From NCBI GenBank assembly GCA_027068765.1, contig JAMOMC010000040.1, positions 1-32,235 on the forward strand: a stretch of 32,235 nucleotides of DNA, given 5' to 3'. Source of the stretch: Campylobacterales bacterium. GTDB taxonomy: Bacteria; Campylobacterota; Campylobacteria; Campylobacterales; QNZT01. Each line of letters starts with the position of its first letter. Position 1 is the stretch's first letter. Position numbers and translations under genes: made by a program. The notes under the pieces were generated by a model, which saw only the letters and a list, made by a program, of their open reading frames with translations, was not told where the DNA came from and made no database searches. Positions 7,559-19,002 of the stretch are shown here, one piece after another.

Positions 7559-7590
7559 TAAGCGATTTAAATAAGTCGCTTATTTTTTAA
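7557..7590 (+). terminator. Rho-independent terminator after the PAS gene
   Basis: AATAAGCGA ... TCGCTTATT 9-bp stem followed by a T run. Confidence 0.8.
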
Positions 7591-8134
7591 TTTCTGCTAC
7601 TATTACCCCTCTAAAATCACCTTCAACAAAACCCATCGCTTTATCATTTGGGTATGCTTTTGTGATTATAGATTTTAGCTTTTTATCTACATTAGTACCG
7701 TGACATTTTAGACAAGCACCTTTTGTTAAAAGTGGTTTATAAACTCTGTATGTATCAGCAAATTTAAAAACAACTATATCATCTGGAGCGAAAATCTTTT
7801 TTTCAATCTTTTTTAGGTAGACATCCATGATTCCTCTATCTACTCCATCTGCTTTATTGGACTCATTTCTATACTTTAAAGCTGCTCGTCTTACACTTGC
7901 ATGTTGAGGTAATTTTTTATTTACCTCAACTGTTATATCCTTTGCTGCACCTATACAAAATCCCAAAGCTGCCTCCCCACTTGGATCTTCTTTCATCTTT
8001 TTTACAAGATTACTTTTTAACTCACTTCCTAACATATTGATATATTTTATACCCTCTTGTTTTATCTTTTCATCATCTGCTTGTAAAAGACTTGTTGTTA
8101 TTGCAATTACTAAAATTATATTTTTTATCTTCAT
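7580..8134 (-). CDS. Periplasmic c-type haem protein, DUF3365/Tll0287-like
   Basis: Signal peptide, single CLKCH haem motif near the C-terminus, EAALGFCIGAAK ... VRRAALKYRNESNKAD typical of the DUF3365 family. Confidence 0.75.
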   Translation of the reverse strand: MKIKNIILVIAITTSLLQADDEKIKQEGIKYINMLGSELKSNLVKKMKEDPSGEAALGFCIGAAKDITVEVNKKLPQHASVRRAALKYRNESNKADGVDRGIMDVYLKKIEKKIFAPDDIVVFKFADTYRVYKPLLTKGACLKCHGTNVDKKLKSIITKAYPNDKAMGFVEGDFRGVIVAEIKK

Positions 8135-8150
8135 TTATTTTTCCTTATAT

Positions 8151-8822
8151 TTATTTCAAAGTATCTAACAATCTTCGCGCTTCTTTTGAGTCGTTATGTT
8201 TTAGATAGAGCGAAAGTGCTTTTTTAGCAACTGTTGGTTGCCCTAAAATTACTTTTGATTTTGCATAAAGTATCCAAGGAAGACTCTGTTTTGCATCTTT
8301 TTTACTAGCTTTAACAGCCCAAACAATAGACTTTTGATAATCTTTTTCATCATAATAGAACTTCGCAACATTTAAAGCAGAATTATAAGATTGATGCTCT
8401 TTATCTGATACCAAAAGCTTATATAGGCTTTTTCTCTCTTTTACCTCTAGTTTAAATGTCTCATCTTTATCTATATCTTTTGAAGCTCTTTTGTAAATTT
8501 CATCTGGAAGTTCTTGTGATTTTGGTGTTTCAACTTCTACTCTTGGAACTACCTTTGATTCAATATCTTCTTTTTTGACTTCTAGCTCTTTTGTCTCATT
8601 GTCACTTACTACTTTTTCTACACTATTTTTGATAGCAACTTCACTTTTTTCAGGTGTTGTTGTCTTGAAACTGTTCATAATAAAACTGCTATTTGTCGCA
8701 AGATAAAAACCAGCCAGACAAAGAGCAATAACCACTAGTAGAAAAAGAAATAACTTATCTCTTTTTCTATTTTGATATTTCTCATACTTTTTTACAAGTT
8801 CATTAAAATTATTATTTAACAT
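8151..8822 (-). CDS. TM-anchored TPR protein, MshN-like
   Basis: Single TM helix near the N-terminus, low-complexity linker, C-terminal TPR-like repeats; overlaps the ATPase gene. Confidence 0.6.
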   Translation of the reverse strand: MLNNNFNELVKKYEKYQNRKRDKLFLFLLVVIALCLAGFYLATNSSFIMNSFKTTTPEKSEVAIKNSVEKVVSDNETKELEVKKEDIESKVVPRVEVETPKSQELPDEIYKRASKDIDKDETFKLEVKERKSLYKLLVSDKEHQSYNSALNVAKFYYDEKDYQKSIVWAVKASKKDAKQSLPWILYAKSKVILGQPTVAKKALSLYLKHNDSKEARRLLDTLK

Positions 8823-9618
8823 CTAAAAGTCCTGTATCGATCGCAGCCATTGTAAGTGTTTTTGTATTTATTTTTAAGTAGCTATTTGATAATTTATCTT
8901 TTTCGGCTATGTTCATGATTTCAAAAAGTGTTCTTACCAATTTTTTAGTTGTTCTAAAGTTTCTATTTGCATATCTATTTATATGTTTTATATGTCTTGC
9001 TTTGAACATCGCAGCAAACTCTGAAAGATTGTTTGAAATTAGTCTATTTTCGATATACCTAGCCACTTCATGGTCTTGTAAAGATTGTATTTCTATTACT
9101 CTGTTTGTCCTTGATTTGAAGTGATCTTTGTCTAAGATATACTGCCCTTCTTTTTTATGCATGGCTAGTACAAACTGAAAAATCTTTTGATCACTTAAAA
9201 TTCTCACAAGCTCTATCTGCTCTTCTGTTAAAAGCTGTGCTTCATCTATAAAAACTGTATACTCTAAGTTATTAAAATTTTTAGATAAACTTGATATAAG
9301 AGCTTCGGTTGTAAGCTCATTTCGCTCTATATTTTTTCCAGCCATGCTTAAAAGTATCTCTAAAAACTCTTTTTCATCAAAATATGGATGAGTGAAATAC
9401 TTTGCAACCTTAACGGTTTTCACTCTTTTTGTAATGTAATTTAATAAAAAACTTTTACCACATCCAGGATTTCCTAAAACAAAAATCAAAGGTGTGTCGT
9501 GTGCTGTGATGGCATCAATTAAACTTTTTTTGGCATATTCAAATGTCAAAGAGTCAAAATATCCGCTTAAATCAAAATCATCACTAAACAGGTCTTTGGC
9601 AATCGCATATTGATTCAT
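8812..9618 (-). CDS. AAA ATPase, ExeA/MshM-like
   Basis: Walker A GNPGCGKSFLL, Walker B TVFIDEAQLL; N-terminus resembles ExeA/GspA/MshM ATPases. Confidence 0.75.
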   Translation of the reverse strand: MNQYAIAKDLFSDDFDLSGYFDSLTFEYAKKSLIDAITAHDTPLIFVLGNPGCGKSFLLNYITKRVKTVKVAKYFTHPYFDEKEFLEILLSMAGKNIERNELTTEALISSLSKNFNNLEYTVFIDEAQLLTEEQIELVRILSDQKIFQFVLAMHKKEGQYILDKDHFKSRTNRVIEIQSLQDHEVARYIENRLISNNLSEFAAMFKARHIKHINRYANRNFRTTKKLVRTLFEIMNIAEKDKLSNSYLKINTKTLTMAAIDTGLLDVK

Positions 9619-9664
9619 TAGTCCTCTTTATTTGTCGAGACCTTCAAGAGCAGGTACACTCTAA

Positions 9665-9760
9665 TCACCTCGAACTAGGTTTTGGAATTATAACTATAAT
9701 CAATTCGCTCTTAGAATTGACTGTTTTTTTACTTTTAAAAATATTTTCTAAAATTGCCAT
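9665..9760 (-). pseudogene. Secretin C-terminal remnant (MshL/PilQ-like)
   Basis: Minus strand encodes MAILENIFKSKKTVNSKSELIIVIIPKPSSR*. The same frame stays open upstream (IKPLQDKSKSKTTKALIFDT...). Resembles the secretin end 'PxLGxLFKSxxxxxxKSELVIxxTP'. Confidence 0.6.
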
Positions 9761-9970
9761 AGTATCAAAAATTAGAGCTTTGGTAGTTTTACTTTTACTT
9801 TTGTCCTGTAGAGGCTTTATGAGTAATATTTTTTTTACTGTTATGTTAAAAAATTTTAAGTAAAATCCTGTTAAATTTCTTTTTCAAAAAGCTAATGGTT
9901 TAAATAGATGTTACGATATCAGTCAATTTATAGTAAAACTAATAATTATAGAGATTTCAAGGGAAGAAAG

Positions 9971-10080
9971 ATGGATAGAAACGATATTCTTTTAAACGCA
10001 GTTTAACAGAGATTAATTCACAAACAGCAACAATTTTCTACCATTTGCAAATTAAGATTCTTCTAGTTAACCTATTTTGA
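9971..10080 (+). pseudogene. Short frameshifted ORF remnant
   Basis: MDRNDILLNAV then stop; shifting frame at the gtttaa site gives LTEINSQTATIFYHLQIKILLVNLF*. Good RBS-like GGGAAGAAAG upstream. Confidence 0.3.
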
Positions 10081-10491
10081 TTTACAAGCTGAAAACTTTA
10101 TATCAGCACTCTCTTTCTCTCCGCCTTCTTTTCCATCAGCTCCCAAAGAGATCATCTCTATGACTCCATCATTGTTTATGTAGATGTATGAATTTTTCCA
10201 TGGGTCAACTGGTACATTTCCATCTAAATAGCCTCCATCTGGGTAGCTTTTGTACTTTTCTGGATCAGGGTTTGATACTAATGCTTTCATGCCTTCTTCT
10301 GTGGTTGGAAGTAAGCCGTTGCTTAGTTTGAAGTTTTTAAATGCATCATTTATGCTTTGCATCTGAATACAGACTATCTTTTTTCTTGCTTCTTCGCTTT
10401 GTCCTAATAAGTTTGGTAGGACAAGTCCTGCTAAAAGTCCTAAAATAATGATAACAATCATAATCTCAATAAGTGAAAAACCTCTTCTCAT
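10072..10491 (-). CDS. gspG: Type II secretion major pseudopilin GspG
   Basis: Prepilin motif RRG|FSLIEIMIVIIILGLLAGLVLPNL and GspG C-terminal pattern (GYLDGNVPVDPWKNSYIY...GADGKEGG). Confidence 0.93.
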   Translation of the reverse strand: MRRGFSLIEIMIVIIILGLLAGLVLPNLLGQSEEARKKIVCIQMQSINDAFKNFKLSNGLLPTTEEGMKALVSNPDPEKYKSYPDGGYLDGNVPVDPWKNSYIYINNDGVIEMISLGADGKEGGEKESADIKFSACKSK

Positions 10492-10583
10492 GCTGGTTCC
10501 TTTTTTTAAATATATTGTACTTTAAGCATATAGTGTATAAAATTAAAGCTAAAACTATTATAAGAGAAAGTCACTTAAAGATA

Positions 10584-11516
10584 ATGAAAAAAGCTATTGT
10601 ATTACTTATGACTATTGGATTTATTGCTCTTATATCAGCATTAGTGCTTATATCGCTCTCTATCTCTAAAAAAAGTTTTGATCAAGTTGTCTATTTAGAT
10701 GCGAGAAATCAATTTTCTGTAGCTTTTAAAGATTTTGTGAAGATGCTTGATGAGGGTAGTGAAAAGGTTAATACAAAAGAGGAATTAGATATATTTGCAT
10801 ACCTTGTTTTGCCCCCTATGATTGAGCCAAAAACAGGTGTAGAGTTTGGTTTTTTTGTAGAGCCTTTGATGGGGAAGTTAAATATAAACTATATTTTAGA
10901 GCAGATGAGATTGGATGAAAATGGCTCAAAGTTAGAGTATCTTGAGAGACCGTTAGTCAATTTTTTTAATAAGTTTGAGTTAAAAGAGCAAAGGACTCTT
11001 TTAAATATCTTAAGAGATACTATAGATAAAGATGATATTGAGATGGGTGCTTATAGTGAGATTGCATCTTTGGATTTTGATTTTCGTGAGGGAAAAATTT
11101 ATAGTTTTAACCATTTGAAGAAGATTTTTGACCACTACAATAAAATAAGCTATGATGCAAATGTATATAAAATTACAAAAGAGATTTGGGAAGAGTCGTT
11201 TTATTTTGGTGATACAAATGCATCTAAACAGTTTTTAGATTGTGCTAAGATGCAAGGTGTTGTAAATCTTATAACAGACAATTTATACTTAGATGCAAAT
11301 GAAAGAGATTTTTGTAATGAGTTTAATCAAACTGAGGAGTTTGATTTGAAAAAGCTAAAAGAGATATATAATATTGCATCTTTTGATAAAAAAAGAGAAT
11401 ATCTGCTAAAATGCAATATTATATTTAATACAGAGAATTTTAAAACAAATGTGACATTTGATTATGATATTAAAGATGCAAGGATAGGTAATATTGACAA
11501 AAATTTTCAAGAGTGA
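10584..11516 (+). CDS. GspK-like type II secretion minor pseudopilin
   Basis: Likely start at internal Met (10584): MKKAIVLLMTIGFIALISALVLISLSISKK; position next to gspG and upstream of other T2SS genes. The ORF track starts at 10473. Confidence 0.6.
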   Translation: MKKAIVLLMTIGFIALISALVLISLSISKKSFDQVVYLDARNQFSVAFKDFVKMLDEGSEKVNTKEELDIFAYLVLPPMIEPKTGVEFGFFVEPLMGKLNINYILEQMRLDENGSKLEYLERPLVNFFNKFELKEQRTLLNILRDTIDKDDIEMGAYSEIASLDFDFREGKIYSFNHLKKIFDHYNKISYDANVYKITKEIWEESFYFGDTNASKQFLDCAKMQGVVNLITDNLYLDANERDFCNEFNQTEEFDLKKLKEIYNIASFDKKREYLLKCNIIFNTENFKTNVTFDYDIKDARIGNIDKNFQE

Positions 11517-12429
11517 TAGCAAGATACTTTATCTAAGTAGCAAAACTTCTATACAAAAAAGCGGTAAGTTTGATGTTATACTCTCTCCACAGTTTTATTG
11601 GGTTAAGAGAGTTTCTCTTCCAGTTTCAAGTTTGAGTGGTGCAAAGAGATTAGCACAGTCGATTTATGAGGGCTCTTTACCTGAGGGTGATTTCTCTTAT
11701 GAAGTTAGCAAAGTAGATGATGAGTTTATTATTATAGCTTATGATAAAAATAGCATATCTTCGATAATTTCTGAAAAATTTACACAAGATGCAAAAGTTT
11801 CTGGTATCTATTTTGCACAAAATGAGTTTTTAGATCTTCAGGGTTGTTGTGGGATTGATGAGACAAATTCACTTGTAAATATCAACTCTTTAATCATGCA
11901 AGTACCAAGAGTTTGTACTGAATCAAAAAAAGAGATAAGTTTTTTTCTTGAAAATAAAAAATTATCAAAAAACAAAATTACACTAGGCTCATTTGAAGAT
12001 AGTGTGATTAGTTTAAAAGAGTTTTATTTTGTAGCTGCGGCTGTTTTTATCTTGTTCTCCTCTTTTGTTATTGACTGGGTAAATTACAGCTCTTCGCTTG
12101 CAAATCTTGAAGATAAAAGAACTCAAATAATTACAAAAAATGATCTACCTCAAACTTCGATGCAGTTAAATAGCATAAAAGATAGCTTGACTAAAACTTA
12201 CAAAACACAAAAAAGCATACGAGATGCAGTTTTTGGTTTTAGTAAACTAAATCTTAAAAAGGGAGAGTATATTGAGCATATTTCAGCCTCTTCTAAAGAG
12301 ATGATAGTTGTTATAAAAGTGAATGATAAAAATAGAGAAAACGAAATAAAACAGAGACTTTCAAAAACATTTAAAATTAAAAGTTCAATTTTTAACGAAA
12401 AACATTTAACTATAAAGATAGCTTCATGA
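11494..12429 (+). CDS. GspL/PilM-like inner-membrane component
   Basis: Cytoplasmic domain, one TM segment (FYFVAAAVFILFSSFVIDWV), short periplasmic domain; position in T2SS operon. Confidence 0.5.
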   Translation: MTKIFKSDSKILYLSSKTSIQKSGKFDVILSPQFYWVKRVSLPVSSLSGAKRLAQSIYEGSLPEGDFSYEVSKVDDEFIIIAYDKNSISSIISEKFTQDAKVSGIYFAQNEFLDLQGCCGIDETNSLVNINSLIMQVPRVCTESKKEISFFLENKKLSKNKITLGSFEDSVISLKEFYFVAAAVFILFSSFVIDWVNYSSSLANLEDKRTQIITKNDLPQTSMQLNSIKDSLTKTYKTQKSIRDAVFGFSKLNLKKGEYIEHISASSKEMIVVIKVNDKNRENEIKQRLSKTFKIKSSIFNEKHLTIKIAS

Positions 12430-12821
12430 CACAAAAAAGGTTTATTTTATTTGTAGTTCTTAGTTTGGTTTTATTGTTGTTTGTCTATATAAAAAAAGAG
12501 GGTGCTAAAAAAGAGTATTTAGTTCAAAAAGTAGAGCTTTTGGCTTTTGAAAAAGAGGCAAAAGAGTTAGCCGTTCTTAAAAATAAGTACAAAGATAAAA
12601 AGACAACCGCAAGATTGATATCTTCTCTAAAGAGAATTAAAGCTCCATCAAAAGATTTTACAAAGCAAGATATAAGAGTTTTAGAGTTTGAAAAGTTAGA
12701 TATAAGAGCTTTAAATCAACTTATAAAAAAGATACAAAATGCGACATTTGTTATCACAAAACTTGAAATCATAAGAGAGAGTGATACAGATGCAAAACTT
12801 AGAGTGGAGATTAAAAAATGA
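12426..12821 (+). CDS. GspM-like protein
   Basis: Small bitopic protein with one N-terminal TM helix, between L-like and N-like genes. Confidence 0.4.
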   Translation: MTQKRFILFVVLSLVLLLFVYIKKEGAKKEYLVQKVELLAFEKEAKELAVLKNKYKDKKTTARLISSLKRIKAPSKDFTKQDIRVLEFEKLDIRALNQLIKKIQNATFVITKLEIIRESDTDAKLRVEIKK

Positions 12822-13336
12822 AGAAGATTTTGATATTTTTGATTGTTTTTTACATTGTAGCTATAGTTTTTATGCCTAAAGAAAATCTATATTTCACTCT
12901 TAAAAATACTCTAAAAAGTGAGCAAATTGGACTAAATGAAGAGAGTCTTAGTGATAATTTTGTATCTTTAAAAGCTTTAGGTCTTGTTGTGTCTTATGAT
13001 GGAATTAAATCACTTCAAGCCAAAGAGCTTATAGTAACTCCTTTTTTATTTTACAATAAAATAAAAGCTTATGAAGTATCAGCAGCTTCTTCTTTTAAAG
13101 AGATGTTTAGATTTTCTGCAGATGAAGTTGAGATAACTTATGCTATTTGGAATTATAATGAGGCAAAGATTTATGCTACTGGTGATTTTGGTGAGTTAAA
13201 TGGAGTTTTTGATTTGCAAAAAAAGAGTCTTCAAGTTGTATTAAAACCTAGTATGGAGTTTGAAAATTCCTCGATGTTAAGGCAGCATTTTAAAAAGAGC
13301 GAGGAGGGTTATATCTATGAAACAAAAATCAAATAA
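12818..13336 (+). CDS. GspN-like protein
   Basis: N-terminal TM plus β-rich domain; gene position between M-like and C-like genes. Confidence 0.4.
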   Translation: MKKILIFLIVFYIVAIVFMPKENLYFTLKNTLKSEQIGLNEESLSDNFVSLKALGLVVSYDGIKSLQAKELIVTPFLFYNKIKAYEVSAASSFKEMFRFSADEVEITYAIWNYNEAKIYATGDFGELNGVFDLQKKSLQVVLKPSMEFENSSMLRQHFKKSEEGYIYETKIK

Positions 13337-14150
13337 CTATTTTTATATAGTCGCTTTTTATATAATTCTCCCTATTGCATTAGCTAAATTGCTTTGGAGT
13401 GTGGCTATGTTTTTTTTAGATAAGGATGCATTAGAAGTTCCAAAACAAGAGAGTTTTGTTTATCATTATAATATCAACTTAGCAAAAGATATTATAGGAG
13501 CTAAAAGAGATGCTGTTGCAACTGTAGAGCAGATTGAGACAAACAATCGTATAGATAGTATTAAATTAAAAGGAACTTATGTATCTAAATCAAATAACTT
13601 TATTATAATTGAAGATGATTTAGGGACAACTTTTTTATATAAAAATGAAAAATATATGGGTTATGAATTGATAGAGATTTATGACCAGAGAGCTGTTTTA
13701 GAAAAAGATGGAAGAAAATATGATATAGTTTTGGAAGATAGTGATAAAAAAGCAGATAGAGCATCTTCTATATCACAAGATAAAAAATCCTCAGCTTCAA
13801 AAGCGACAACTCAAGAGGAGTATATACCTGGTGAGCCAATTATATTGACAAGAGAAGAGATAGACTCATATATCAAAGACCCTAATAAAATTTGGAAAAA
13901 CATAAGAATTCAAGAGCTTAGAAAAGATGGGATATTAGAAGGCTTTAGAGTAAATTATGTCAAAAGAAAATCGTTTTTTGACAATATTGGGTTAAAAAGT
14001 GGAGATGTTATAAAAAGTATTGATGGAAAAGAGATAAAATCTCTTGCAGATGTTATGAGGTATTATGAGGATGTAAATAATCTTGAAGGCTTATCTATAA
14101 GTGTTTTAAGAGGAGAAGATATCCTAGATTTTGAATTTAATGTTAATTAG
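13317..14150 (+). CDS. GspC-like protein with HR and PDZ domains
   Basis: N-terminal TM, IKLKGTYVSKSNNFIIIEDDLGTTFLYKNE (HR-like), PDZ-like C-terminus LEGFRVNYVKRKSFFDNIGLKSGDVIKSIDGKEI. Confidence 0.72.
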   Translation: MKQKSNNYFYIVAFYIILPIALAKLLWSVAMFFLDKDALEVPKQESFVYHYNINLAKDIIGAKRDAVATVEQIETNNRIDSIKLKGTYVSKSNNFIIIEDDLGTTFLYKNEKYMGYELIEIYDQRAVLEKDGRKYDIVLEDSDKKADRASSISQDKKSSASKATTQEEYIPGEPIILTREEIDSYIKDPNKIWKNIRIQELRKDGILEGFRVNYVKRKSFFDNIGLKSGDVIKSIDGKEIKSLADVMRYYEDVNNLEGLSISVLRGEDILDFEFNVN

Positions 14151-14161
14151 GGGTTTGAGTA

Positions 14162-16249
14162 ATGAATAAAATTTTTAAGATTATAGTTATAGCGGTGATG
14201 ATAAGTACTTTATCACTTAATGCAAAGACAAAAACAGATCCAAATGAGATAAATATCAATTTTAAAGATTTAAAAATTGTTGATTTTGTAAAGATGGTTG
14301 CAAGAATTACTGGTAAAAATATTTTAATCGGGGAAAATATCCAAGGTAAAGTTGATTTTGTCTCTGTTAAGCCTATAAAAAAAGATCAAATCTACACTCT
14401 TTTAGTAAATGTCTTAAACTCAAAAGGTTTTACCATAAGAGATACTAAAAATGGCTTTTTAAAAGTGATAAGAAGCTCAGATGCAACTAAAACTGCACCG
14501 CCTGCTTATGGTTCATCTGATGTAAGTGAAGTTCAAACAACTGTCATCTCTGTTCAAAATTTAAATGTTAGAACGATTTTAAGGCAGATTAATTTTCTTT
14601 TAAGTAAATATGGAAAGATAACTCTCTCATATGAAAACAATGCTGTAGTAGTTACGGATTTTCCTGACAATATCAAAAGTATTCAAAACCTTATTTATAA
14701 GTTAGACCGTAGAGAGAAAGCACAAGTTGAATTTGTTATTTTAAAAAATGCAGATGCAAAAACAGTGGCTCCAAAAATTCAAAAGTTAGCAAATATAATT
14801 TTTAATAAAAAAATCGAGACTCAAAAGATGGATATCTTTTCAGATGAAGCTACAAATGCCGTCATAGTTGTTGGAAAAAGAGCAAATATAAGAACACTTA
14901 TTCCAAATATAAGAGCTTTAGATAAAGAGAATGAGACAGTTGATAAAAGGATGGAAATTATCTATGTCAAAAATGCAGATGCGGTTGAGATAGTAAAAAC
15001 TTTAGAGAAACTTCTATCTGATAAAAGTTTTGCCCAAAGTATAAGGCACGAAGAGAGAGAAATTGTAACAAATACAGCAAAAACTGCACCAAATCAGCCA
15101 AAAGATATAAAAGCACCTGCTCAAACAAAAACAGAGATTATTCCTAGCATTGTAGGTAAAGATAAACCGACTGTAACAGTAGATGCAGAGCTTAATGCGG
15201 TTGTAGTTTATGCGACTGAGAGAGAGATAAAAGAGATAAGAAGTGTTGTCAATTCTTTAGATGTTGAGAGGCAACAAGTTTATGTAAAAGCTAGAATTTT
15301 TGAATTTTCTGATGAAAAAGCTTCTACTTTAGGTGTAAAGTATGGAATTGGCGGAGGAATGATAAGAAGTTCAGGTATCTATGGCTTTAGTGGCTCTCTT
15401 GGTGGGGATTTAGGGCCTGTTACTGCTTTTAGCACAATGCTAAGCCAACTTACAACTGGAAATACAAACTTAATTACAAATTTAAATCGAGCTTTAGCCC
15501 TTGGTGTTACTATGAATTTTTTTAAAAACAATGATGTAGCATCTATCATATCTGAGCCTTCAATTTTATGTGTAAACAATAAAGAGTCATCTTTGTACTC
15601 TGGAAGAACACAGTCAGTTTTAAGTCAGAGTGCAACACCAACAAGTACAACAGGTATGACACAAAACTCTTATACAAGAGAAGATATTGGTTTAACTCTA
15701 AAAGTTAAGCCTAGAATTTCTGCTGATGATAAAGTTTCCTTGGAAGTAAAAGTGAGTCTTGAAGATGTAGTTGGGGGAACAGTAGGACTTCCTACAACTA
15801 CTAAAAGTGAAGTTGAAACAGTTTCAATTGTTACAAATGGTGAGACTGTAATTATCAGTGGGTTAGTTAAAAATAAAGAGACTAAAAATAGAAGTAGTAT
15901 CCCTTTTTTGGGTGATATTCCAATTTTAGGTATACCGTTTCGTCATACTGTAAAAGATAGAGAGAAGTCAAATTTGATTATTATGATAACTCCTTATATC
16001 GTTAAAAAGAGTGAGGATTTGGCAAATATCAGAGAGATATTAGGAGAGATGGATCTTTTGGAGAACAAGCTAGCTTTGGAGCTTGAAGAGAAGTATAAAA
16101 AAAGAGCCAAGATAAGTACTCCTGAAATCTCAACCTCTGATGGAGAGTATTTTTTTAGAATTGATGAGTTTGGAGTTAGAACTAAGATTTTTGTAGATAG
16201 CCAAGGTCGTGAGATTAGAGCTGAAAAAGTTGAAACTTTTGATTTTTAA
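14162..16249 (+). CDS. gspD: Type II secretion secretin GspD
   Basis: N0/N1-type domains, secretin core EPSILCVNNKESSLYSG..., VSIVTNGETVIISGLVKNKETKNRSSIPFLGDIPILGIPFRHTVKDREKSNLIIMITPYIV. Confidence 0.95.
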   Translation: MNKIFKIIVIAVMISTLSLNAKTKTDPNEININFKDLKIVDFVKMVARITGKNILIGENIQGKVDFVSVKPIKKDQIYTLLVNVLNSKGFTIRDTKNGFLKVIRSSDATKTAPPAYGSSDVSEVQTTVISVQNLNVRTILRQINFLLSKYGKITLSYENNAVVVTDFPDNIKSIQNLIYKLDRREKAQVEFVILKNADAKTVAPKIQKLANIIFNKKIETQKMDIFSDEATNAVIVVGKRANIRTLIPNIRALDKENETVDKRMEIIYVKNADAVEIVKTLEKLLSDKSFAQSIRHEEREIVTNTAKTAPNQPKDIKAPAQTKTEIIPSIVGKDKPTVTVDAELNAVVVYATEREIKEIRSVVNSLDVERQQVYVKARIFEFSDEKASTLGVKYGIGGGMIRSSGIYGFSGSLGGDLGPVTAFSTMLSQLTTGNTNLITNLNRALALGVTMNFFKNNDVASIISEPSILCVNNKESSLYSGRTQSVLSQSATPTSTTGMTQNSYTREDIGLTLKVKPRISADDKVSLEVKVSLEDVVGGTVGLPTTTKSEVETVSIVTNGETVIISGLVKNKETKNRSSIPFLGDIPILGIPFRHTVKDREKSNLIIMITPYIVKKSEDLANIREILGEMDLLENKLALELEEKYKKRAKISTPEISTSDGEYFFRIDEFGVRTKIFVDSQGREIRAEKVETFDF

Positions 16250-16261
16250 AAGGTGTAAAAT

Positions 16262-17785
16262 ATGCAGTTAAACAATATAGCAGAGTTTTTTGATTTAGAT
16301 CTTTATCCTGAGATAATTGAAAATATTGACCATGACTTGTGTGTTAAAAATTCACTACTATTTACAAAAATAGATGATAAAATATATACAATTTTAACAA
16401 AAGAAAAGTTAAGTGATGGCTTTAACATGCTCTCAAAACTTCAAGTATCTTTTCCTATGGCTTTTGTTGACAATGACTCTTATGAGAGGCTTTATCATAG
16501 GTTTTTAGAGATTAAAACAGATAAAGAGCTCTCAGGTGCTATAAATGAAGAGAGTGAAGTTGAGCTTCTTGATGAGGAGATTTCTCTTACTGATTTTTTG
16601 AAAAATAGTTCAGATATTTTAACAAGTGAAGAGTCTGCTCCTATCATTAAGTTTGTAAATTCACTCTTTTATCAAGCTGTTAAAAAAGGTGCTTCGGATA
16701 TTCATATAGAGACTCATGAGAGTCGTGGAGTTGTCCGTTTTCGTGTTGATGGTGTATTGGTACGACATGTGGATTTAGATAAAAATATCATCTCTTTAGT
16801 TGTTAGTCGTATCAAAGTTATATCAAATCTTGATATTTCTGAAAAAAGAGTTCCACAAGATGGAAGAACTCAGGTAAAAATTGCAGGAAAAGGTTTAGAT
16901 ATAAGGGTTTCTGTACTTCCAACTTATCACGGAGAGAGAGTTGTTATGAGAATTCTTAGTGAATCTTCGGACATTCCAACACTTCAGATGCTTGGATTTT
17001 CAAAAAGTTTGACAGAAGATTTTGAGAAACTTCTTGAGCACTCTCATGGTATGATTTTAGTAACAGGACCCACGGGAAGTGGTAAATCAACTACTCTTCA
17101 CACCTTTTTACAACTTGTTGCAACCCCTGATAAAAATATCATAACCATAGAAGACCCAGTTGAGTACAAAGCAGAAAATATCAATCAGATACAAGTAAAT
17201 GCTAAAACTGGTCTTACATTTTCAGCTGGACTTAGATCGATTTTAAGACAAGATCCTGATATTGTGATGGTTGGTGAAATTAGAGATAAAGAGACCGCAG
17301 AGATTGCAATTCAAGCAGCTCTTACAGGGCATCTTATGCTTTCAACTTTACACACAAACAATACAGCGGCTGCAATTACAAGACTTGTTGATATGGGGGT
17401 TGATGATTTTTTAATTAGCTCTTCACTTCTTGGAGTTTTGGCTCAAAGACTTGCTAGAAAACTCTGTAACTCTTGTAAAGTAAGAGCTAATGTACCACAA
17501 GATATAGTAGTTGAATATGGTGTGAGTGAAGATGCAGCTGTTTATGAGCCAAGAGGTTGTAAAGAGTGTAACTTTACTGGTTTTTCAGGTCGTCGTGCAG
17601 TTGGAGAGCTTTTAATCATGGATGATGAACTGAAAATTATGTTAAAAGATAAGATGACTGATTTTGAGATAAGAGAGGCTATGCGAAAAAAAGGTATGAG
17701 ACTTATTCGTGATCAGCTTTTAGATCTTTATATTGAGGGTGAAAGCTCTTTAGAAGAGATTATCAGAGTGGGGTTGAAAGATTGA
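16262..17785 (+). CDS. gspE: Type II secretion ATPase GspE
   Basis: Walker A GPTGSGKSTTLH, Asp box, Walker B RSILRQDPDIVMVGEIRDKETAEIA, C-terminal CxxC...CxxC. Confidence 0.96.
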   Translation: MQLNNIAEFFDLDLYPEIIENIDHDLCVKNSLLFTKIDDKIYTILTKEKLSDGFNMLSKLQVSFPMAFVDNDSYERLYHRFLEIKTDKELSGAINEESEVELLDEEISLTDFLKNSSDILTSEESAPIIKFVNSLFYQAVKKGASDIHIETHESRGVVRFRVDGVLVRHVDLDKNIISLVVSRIKVISNLDISEKRVPQDGRTQVKIAGKGLDIRVSVLPTYHGERVVMRILSESSDIPTLQMLGFSKSLTEDFEKLLEHSHGMILVTGPTGSGKSTTLHTFLQLVATPDKNIITIEDPVEYKAENINQIQVNAKTGLTFSAGLRSILRQDPDIVMVGEIRDKETAEIAIQAALTGHLMLSTLHTNNTAAAITRLVDMGVDDFLISSSLLGVLAQRLARKLCNSCKVRANVPQDIVVEYGVSEDAAVYEPRGCKECNFTGFSGRRAVGELLIMDDELKIMLKDKMTDFEIREAMRKKGMRLIRDQLLDLYIEGESSLEEIIRVGLKD

Positions 17786-19002
17786 TATTTAAATATGTTG
17801 GTTATGACGATAATGGCAAAAAAGTAAAAGCTAGAATTGAAGCTTTAGATTTAACAGATGCAAAAAGCAGGTTAAAATCAAAAGGTATAATTTATGAGAG
17901 TATAACTTTAGCGGGTGATTCGTTACTAAAAAAATTTAATTTTAGAAGAAAACATACACTCTCTGCAAAACATCTAGCTTCACTCTCAAGAAACATAGCC
18001 ATTTATCTGAAATCTGGCATCCCGATTGTAAATGTTATCCGTTTAGCAAAACTTCAGTATGAAAAAGATCCTGTTTTGGTTGATTTTTTAACCTCCTTAG
18101 AGACTAGCATGGATGAGGGAAAGAGCTATTATGTTGCATTAGAGAGCCAAGAGATTATCGATTTGCCACCTTTTTATAAACAATCTATAAAAGTTGCAGA
18201 AGAGAGTGGAAGTCTTAGTGAAGTTCTTTTTGAGATGGCAAGATTTGTAGAAGAGGGTGATAAAGTCGCAGGAAAAGTGAAGCAGGCTTTGATATATCCT
18301 GCATTTATTGTTGTTATTTCTGTTTTTATGGTTGCATTTATGCTTACAACTGTTGTGCCAAAGATTACTGGAATGTTTACTCAATTAAAACAAGAGTTGC
18401 CAGCAGTTACAAAAGCTGTTATCTCCATGAGTGATTTTTTGGGTGCATATTGGCTTATAATTGCTATCTCTATTATGGTTTTTTCTTTTATTTTTGGCTA
18501 TCTTGTTAGAACTAGTGAGTCATTTAAACTCTCTTATCATAAATTTTTACTCAAACTTCCTATTTTTGGAAAGATTATTCAAACTTTTGAGTTGGCAAGA
18601 TTTTCTTATATCACCTCTGTTTTAACAAAATCAGGTGTTACTTTTGTTCATGCTGTAAAACTAGCTAGCGGAATTTTAGACAATGTTTCGATAAAAGCTC
18701 AATTTCAAAGTGCGGTTAAAGATTTGGTTGAGGGTAAAAAGTTCTCCTCTGCACTCTCAAAACATGGCACAAATATAGATAAATCATTTGCTCAAGCTGT
18801 GGCTTTAGGAGAAGAGACTAGCGAAGTTTCATTGGTTATGGAAAATTTGGCTGAACTTTATTTTGAAGAGAATAAAAATAAAATTGATCTCTTTTTGGCA
18901 CTTATGGAGCCTATCTTGATTTTGTTTGTTGGTGCGATGATAGGTTTTATCGTTGTTGCGATGCTTTTACCTATCTTTTCGATGAATTTAGGGGCGATGT
19001 AA
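17782..19002 (+). CDS. gspF: Type II secretion inner-membrane platform protein GspF
   Basis: Two T2SSF domains, three TM segments; overlaps gspE. Confidence 0.95.
   Translation: MIFKYVGYDDNGKKVKARIEALDLTDAKSRLKSKGIIYESITLAGDSLLKKFNFRRKHTLSAKHLASLSRNIAIYLKSGIPIVNVIRLAKLQYEKDPVLVDFLTSLETSMDEGKSYYVALESQEIIDLPPFYKQSIKVAEESGSLSEVLFEMARFVEEGDKVAGKVKQALIYPAFIVVISVFMVAFMLTTVVPKITGMFTQLKQELPAVTKAVISMSDFLGAYWLIIAISIMVFSFIFGYLVRTSESFKLSYHKFLLKLPIFGKIIQTFELARFSYITSVLTKSGVTFVHAVKLASGILDNVSIKAQFQSAVKDLVEGKKFSSALSKHGTNIDKSFAQAVALGEETSEVSLVMENLAELYFEENKNKIDLFLALMEPILILFVGAMIGFIVVAMLLPIFSMNLGAM

Follow-up and report, generated by a model that had tools for sequence, protein, structure and literature searches.

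The 32,235-nt stretch of DNA analysed here (the window; positions 1 to 32,235 of contig JAMOMC010000040.1 of the Campylobacterales assembly GCA_027068765.1) carries two intact genes of an MSHA-type pilus locus and the remnant of a third, all on the minus strand. mshM (8812..9618) encodes an ExeA/GspA-type AAA ATPase that is 82% identical to its counterpart in complete loci, while mshN (8151..8822), which overlaps mshM by 11 bp, encodes a protein with an N-terminal transmembrane (TM) segment and C-terminal TPR-like repeats and shows 55% identity to the mshN of a congener (G002). Upstream, ending 15 bp before mshM, lies a 3′ relic of mshL, the gene for the MSHA-type secretin (9634..9835). Within the relic is a 25-bp conserved DNA element, CTAAGAGCGAATTGATTATAGTTAT (9690..9714, minus strand), which matches a pattern found across the family without mismatch and is proposed as a cis-element of mshM. 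The upstream neighbour, outside the MSHA relic, is gspG, encoding the major pseudopilin of a type II secretion system (T2SS; 10072..10491, minus strand; PF08334, E = 1.8e-27), and it is followed by the divergent remainder of a complete-looking T2SS (gspK/L/M/N/C/D/E/F-like genes, 10473..19002, plus strand), whose gspD scores above the cut-offs of PF00263 and TIGR02517. Downstream, at the place that mshE takes in complete loci, is a gene for a Tll0287-like heme-domain protein (7580..8134, minus strand; PF11845, E = 2.6e-18). Elsewhere in the window are a gene for a PIN-domain protein with a small overlapping ORF behind it (1218-1867), which together resemble a toxin-antitoxin pair in reversed order, and a gene in which an AraC-type HTH is fused to a GyrI-like effector-binding domain (2040-2906).

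An initial annotation, made from the sequence, had placed a secretin tail on the minus strand at 9665-9840, upstream of MshM/MshN-like ATPase and TPR genes, and had read the whole as a decayed MSHA-type locus. Reading of the window DNA confirmed the peptide in the minus-strand frame 9665-9883, and the tail is indeed that of a secretin gene at this location, although its true extent is slightly greater, from 9835 to about 9634. Alignment by blastn to the orthologous mshL of G002 (69% identity over 192 nt, E = 3e-25) extends over about 9644-9835, and the final codons, which are frame-shifted, reach about 9634; tblastn, with an 882-nt segment searched, gave 58% identity over 52 aa (E = 4e-13). 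The DNA alignment to the orthologous gene rules out a chance peptide resemblance. A six-frame PF00263 search that covered the whole genome also detected the relic without being pointed to it (9680-9808, E = 0.0145 genome-wide, profile positions 124-166 of 169), as the weakest of five matches in the window genome. The relic peptide alone gave E = 0.0015 over the same profile positions, a score below the gathering cut-off because just 43 of the 169 positions are present.

The relic corresponds to codons ~405-471 of the 471-codon mshL open frame, i.e. the last ~67 codons. Its DNA and the PF00263 match identify C-terminal secretin domain sequence, and the complete N0/N domains and the pore-forming gate are absent, ∼14% of mshL being left. 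The reading frame shifts by 1 nt near 9680 and is also interrupted by one in-frame stop; beyond the shift, the last 15 mshL codons lie in the other frame (LVRGD*SVPALEGLD versus LIRGDENAPTLENLD), so that the relic is a pseudogene and not a secretin. Relocation of the secretin can be rejected as well: as first proposed, the rest of the secretin gene and mshE are missing, with no match at the level of mshL2 or mshE2 elsewhere in the window genome, a 99.98%-complete metagenome-assembled genome (MAG). Its three full secretins are the GspD of the window, a second GspD-like protein and an MshL on contig C54, the last of which belongs to a different MSHA/Cts-like locus and not to the lost one. The gene for the second GspD-like secretin (G000:C164:56678-57166, L002) adjoins a glycogen-phosphorylase-like gene.

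The lost locus is intact in congeners, with the order pilins-pilM-pilNO-mshK-mshL-mshM-mshN-mshE-mshG, which bears out its description as a decayed MSHA-type locus. Complete versions in the congeners G002 and G004 encode prepilins, PilM-, PilN/O- and MshK-like proteins, MshL, MshM, MshN, MshE and MshG, and pilins. The full order, which is not confined to congeners but also occurs in other genera, is found in G002, G004, G007 and G016, and in G006, G008, G011 and G013 as far as their contigs reach, while the window has the tail of mshL, mshM and mshN only. The MshL of G002 scores 240 against TIGR02519, just below the cut-off of 250. The MshE of this congener has the MshE-type c-di-GMP-binding N domain (NF053729, 52.4 bits, cut-off 38); the window genome lacks that mshE. 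Complete loci are flanked by moeA in G002, G007, G013 and G016, and rsmE-copD flanks the locus in G001.

Some of these relatives show irregularities of their own. On contig C340 of G001 (L151:1269-2321), mshL is truncated, starting at codon 39, and is separated from copD by an IS-like transposase gene, an arrangement that would fit the removal of pilM-mshK by an insertion element. On contig C211 of G016 (L059:7784-7915), the locus is otherwise complete but its mshL falls into two parts near codon 410, with ∼120 extra nt, which reflects either early decay or an assembly error. Both cases are possible early stages of locus loss. Separately, in mshK2 (L011:8085-8537), the stretch that encodes the peptide INQDIVVL, ∼90 nt from the 3′ end of the gene, has high synonymous conservation and may be a further internal signal upstream of mshL. 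In the type-1 loci of the family, the DNA at the start of mshL1 (L007:7040-7090) is near-invariant across the compared genomes; there, the high synonymous identity arises because mshL1 overlaps the end of mshK1.

The two surviving genes, unlike the relic, are intact. Between the window mshM and intact congener copies, dN is 0.11-0.12 and dS, which is near saturation, is 1.2-1.5, giving a dN/dS of about 0.09; two copies from intact loci compare in the same way with each other (dN 0.113, dS 1.18), and two orphan mshM genes of another genus (G012 and G014) have a dN of 0.044 and a dS of 1.19. Purifying selection therefore acts on mshM. mshN evolves faster, with a dN/dS of about 0.3, and its frame is open. 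The window MshM has the Walker A motif GNPGCGKS and the Walker B motif VFIDEAQ, and both motifs are intact in every orphan MshM except that of G019, where the Walker B pattern was unmatched. PF13401 recognises the AAA domain (51.8 bits), and the AlphaFold2 model (pLDDT 89) has an AAA fold that is closest to Orc/Cdc6, MuB and TnsC; a sequence search of the PDB returned a weak P-loop match only. At 268 aa, MshM consists of the AAA domain only, with modelled helices that stop with the AAA lid, and it has neither the C-terminal TM segment of GspA (ExeA) nor, among the profile matches listed, a peptidoglycan-binding domain. We take the mshM-mshN pair to be still functional.

This pair has outlived its locus repeatedly. 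Orphan mshM-mshN genes occur in 8 of the 22 family genomes (the window genome, G000, together with G003, G010, G012, G014, G015, G019 and G021), and orphan status is scattered on the mshM tree, with 7 changes (bootstrap 5-7). When sister genomes are grouped, this suggests about 5-6 independent losses around mshM-mshN, in a set of genomes that are largely MAGs and in which some orphan pairs sit at contig ends. Outside the window, most orphan pairs are flanked by rsmE-copD, moeA or both, or by a lipoprotein gene. In G015 and G021, rsmE-copD directly borders the pair on one side and moeA on the other; the pair adjoins rsmE-copD in G012 and moeA in G003 and G010. As these are the borders of the complete locus, the rest of it must have been removed around the pair. 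The window pair is sited differently, with gspG on one side and the Tll0287-like gene on the other. Because G004 has its Tll0287-like gene linked to moeA, the window arrangement may be a rearranged form of the same site. A natural operon split is seen in G014 (contigs C269, C153 and C242), where mshL is followed directly by mshE and the mshM-mshN pair stands alone elsewhere. G012 (C72 and C66) resembles this split, with an mshL contig that stops before the junction.

It could be argued that all of this is pure decay, with the mshL tail and mshM-mshN as functionless leftovers and the tail conserved only because the loss was recent. The frameshift and stop in the tail and the fast evolution of mshN fit such a view, as does G018, which demonstrates that everything can be lost. 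We nevertheless regard it as very improbable: mshM has the same dN/dS in the window as in intact loci, the low ratio also holds between the orphans of G012 and G014, the same two genes outlast each of the separate losses, and the element within the relic is constrained in intact mshL too.

That element emerged from an alignment of the DNA upstream of mshM, where the stretch CTAAGAGYGAATTGATTATAGTWAT is identical in intact mshL genes and relics. Of the 22 family genomes, 12 contain it, in every case near the mshL terminus and as one copy per genome, except that G014 has a second, degenerate copy with three mismatches. The reversed control pattern had no match in the family genomes, and among other genomes of the order there were four isolated single matches, each with three mismatches, in 4 of 377. 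In intact mshL, synonymous (codon) identity reaches 84-92% at the element versus a gene mean of 47-49%. The codons AAG-AGY-GAA-TTG-ATT-ATA are invariant in 8 of 9 family mshL genes, namely those that are not known to be separated from mshM; AAG accounts for 12% of Lys codons and TTG for 11% of Leu codons, yet both are fixed in all eight. In 13 mshL genes of other families that encode the homologous peptide before mshM, the codons vary freely.

The relics and the split operon of G014 carry the same signal. Four relics, which begin at codon 405, 425, 430 or 437, retain 23-25 of the 25 positions relative to their nearest intact genes, versus flanks that are mostly 53-75% identical (Fisher p from 8e-5 to 0.013 per pair, with generous flank alignments). 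If the relics are young, this preservation may partly be lag. In G014, the mshL that precedes mshE keeps the peptide and has three synonymous changes in the element, while the element beside the mshM copy on another contig is perfect, and the element therefore follows mshM and not mshL. Codon usage, the relics and the erosion in G014 together demonstrate a DNA-level constraint on the element that is independent of coding. The constraint is not universal: upstream of mshM in G015, G010, G019 and G021, the best matches have 9-14 mismatches, no better than shuffles. In the orphans of G015, G019 and G021, the mshL tail and the element are both missing, so another control can take over mshM-mshN; for G010, the available upstream DNA is only 83 bp long.

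The element is most likely a cis-element of mshM-mshN, either a promoter or an operator, although both its function and its orientation are inferred from conservation and position. A scan for consensus sigma-70 hexamers gave 3 promoter-like sites versus 2.6 expected by chance, with none on the element. Campylobacterota promoters often lack a -35 box. The strand of mshM carries TATAGT (5/6) and the opposite strand TATAAT (6/6), so the sequence fits either orientation. That perfect TATAAT could instead indicate another kind of DNA signal, such as an antisense promoter, a recombination or mobile-element site, or a genome-level binding site, and loci have been cut and moved around the element in G014 and in G001, with its IS-like transposase inside mshL. 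We consider a signal of this kind unlikely. The single copy per genome (with one degenerate extra in G014) rules out a repeated genome signal and speaks against a regulon, the borders of the relics fall at varying distances upstream of the element and not at the element itself, and in G014 the element went with mshM. An Rfam search yielded no family match, and the RNA between the element and mshM folded no better than shuffles. A cis-element of mshM in the end of mshL would also account for the survival of this end alone.

If the pair is maintained, it should have a client. The initial annotation pointed to the adjoining GspD system, and mshM-mshN might accordingly have been retained to help insert the neighbouring GspD, in the manner of GspA-GspB (ExeAB), with the mshL tail as inert debris. 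The pair does adjoin gspG and a complete-looking T2SS locus, MshM is ExeA/GspA-like, GspA-GspB is implicated in GspD insertion through peptidoglycan (PMC9239104), and G003 has kept mshM-mshN and a T2SS with no MSHA-type locus found. The proposal finds no support in the comparison of genomes, however. Adjacency to gspG is private to the window genome; the other orphan pairs lie away from T2SS genes, no gspD or gspE was found in the orphan genome G012, and congeners have the same T2SS gene order with no mshM-mshN beside it. MshM is also without the part of classical GspA that binds peptidoglycan in the periplasm. By gene order, nothing special ties the orphan mshM to the adjoining T2SS, and we hold this explanation to be improbable.

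A better candidate is the second MSHA/Cts-like locus, on contig C54. In sister families (G243, G235 and G375), the C54-type (type-1) locus has mshM between mshL and mshN. In the family of the window genome, all 20 of the 20 C54-type loci examined lack mshM, with a gap of about 100 bp at most in its place, and a search for a second mshM in these family genomes found one only in G010, where it belongs to a third-type locus. The window genome thus has no MshM besides the orphan, which probably serves the C54 machine, as the absence of an mshM of its own from that locus suggests. Two genomes run counter to this and weaken the case for the second MSHA/Cts-like secretin machine as the client: G018 (99% complete) has a C54-type locus but is devoid of MshM, so the locus can do without this ATPase, and G003 (94% complete) has kept mshM-mshN with no C54-type locus found.

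Taken as a whole, the explanation that we slightly favour is that an MSHA-type pilus locus was lost and that only mshM-mshN and ∼200 bp from the 3′ end of mshL remain. MshM and the membrane-anchored TPR protein MshN would help to assemble or position the secretin of the C54 locus, while the mshL tail would have been kept as the carrier of a 25-bp promoter or operator of mshM-mshN that lies within mshL coding sequence, with deletions extending past the element selected against. A more general version, in which MshM-MshN is a portable secretin-assembly module that has its promoter in the 3′ end of mshL and repeatedly outlives its pilus locus because it is needed in trans by a second machine, is a tentative proposal to which we give a little less than even confidence. 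If this reading is true, the tail of the dead mshL is no debris but serves as promoter for a two-gene operon that is still alive.

What is new here is the repeated survival of mshM-mshN and a conserved element in a dead gene. Natural deletions that spare just these two genes imply that their job is separable from their own pilus, and a testable client can be named in the second secretin machine, which lacks this ATPase. More broadly, a pseudogene fragment may persist by carrying the control element of the next gene, and such fragments would be a trap for annotation and for counts of 'decayed' loci. Our limited literature search found no report of internal promoters kept in pseudogenes. Nor did it find one on stand-alone mshM-mshN or the element, in a search that covered few subscription papers.

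MSH systems have already been reported in Epsilonproteobacteria, normally as one locus, and the MSH model of Denise et al. (2019) includes mshM by name; no mention of stand-alone mshM-mshN without the rest of the system was found there (PMC6668835). Our proposed client has a known counterpart in the Campylobacter Cts transformation machine (CtsD secretin, CtsP ATPase and CtsX), with which the C54 locus and its sister-family versions share a layout of secretin, ATPase, TM-TPR protein and GspE- and GspF-like genes; unlike the Cts machine, the C54-type loci of the family lack the ATPase between the secretin and TPR genes. This likeness depends in part on what we take to be the Cts gene order. It also draws on PMC10046745. 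GspA-GspB (ExeAB) of the T2SS likewise pairs an AAA ATPase with a membrane-anchored partner, and has a proposed role in secretin assembly (PMC9239104). Unlike GspA, MshM has no TM or periplasmic peptidoglycan-binding parts; unlike GspB, MshN is a TPR protein and is not recognised as a GspB homologue, and the mshM-mshN pair is not tied to a T2SS by synteny outside the window. The closest parallel in gene order is the Vibrio cholerae MSHA locus (mshI-J-K-L-M-N-E-G), whose L-M-N-E-G order is the same as in the intact locus of the congeners, while the window has lost all but M, N and a piece of L, and the pair stands alone. Surface pili of V. cholerae were abolished by deletion of mshL or mshE, whereas deletion of mshM or mshN did not lower them (PMC4624765), which makes the conservation of mshM and mshN in MSHA loci puzzling. 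The absence of a pilus effect in these mutants leaves room for a job of MshM and MshN outside the pilus.
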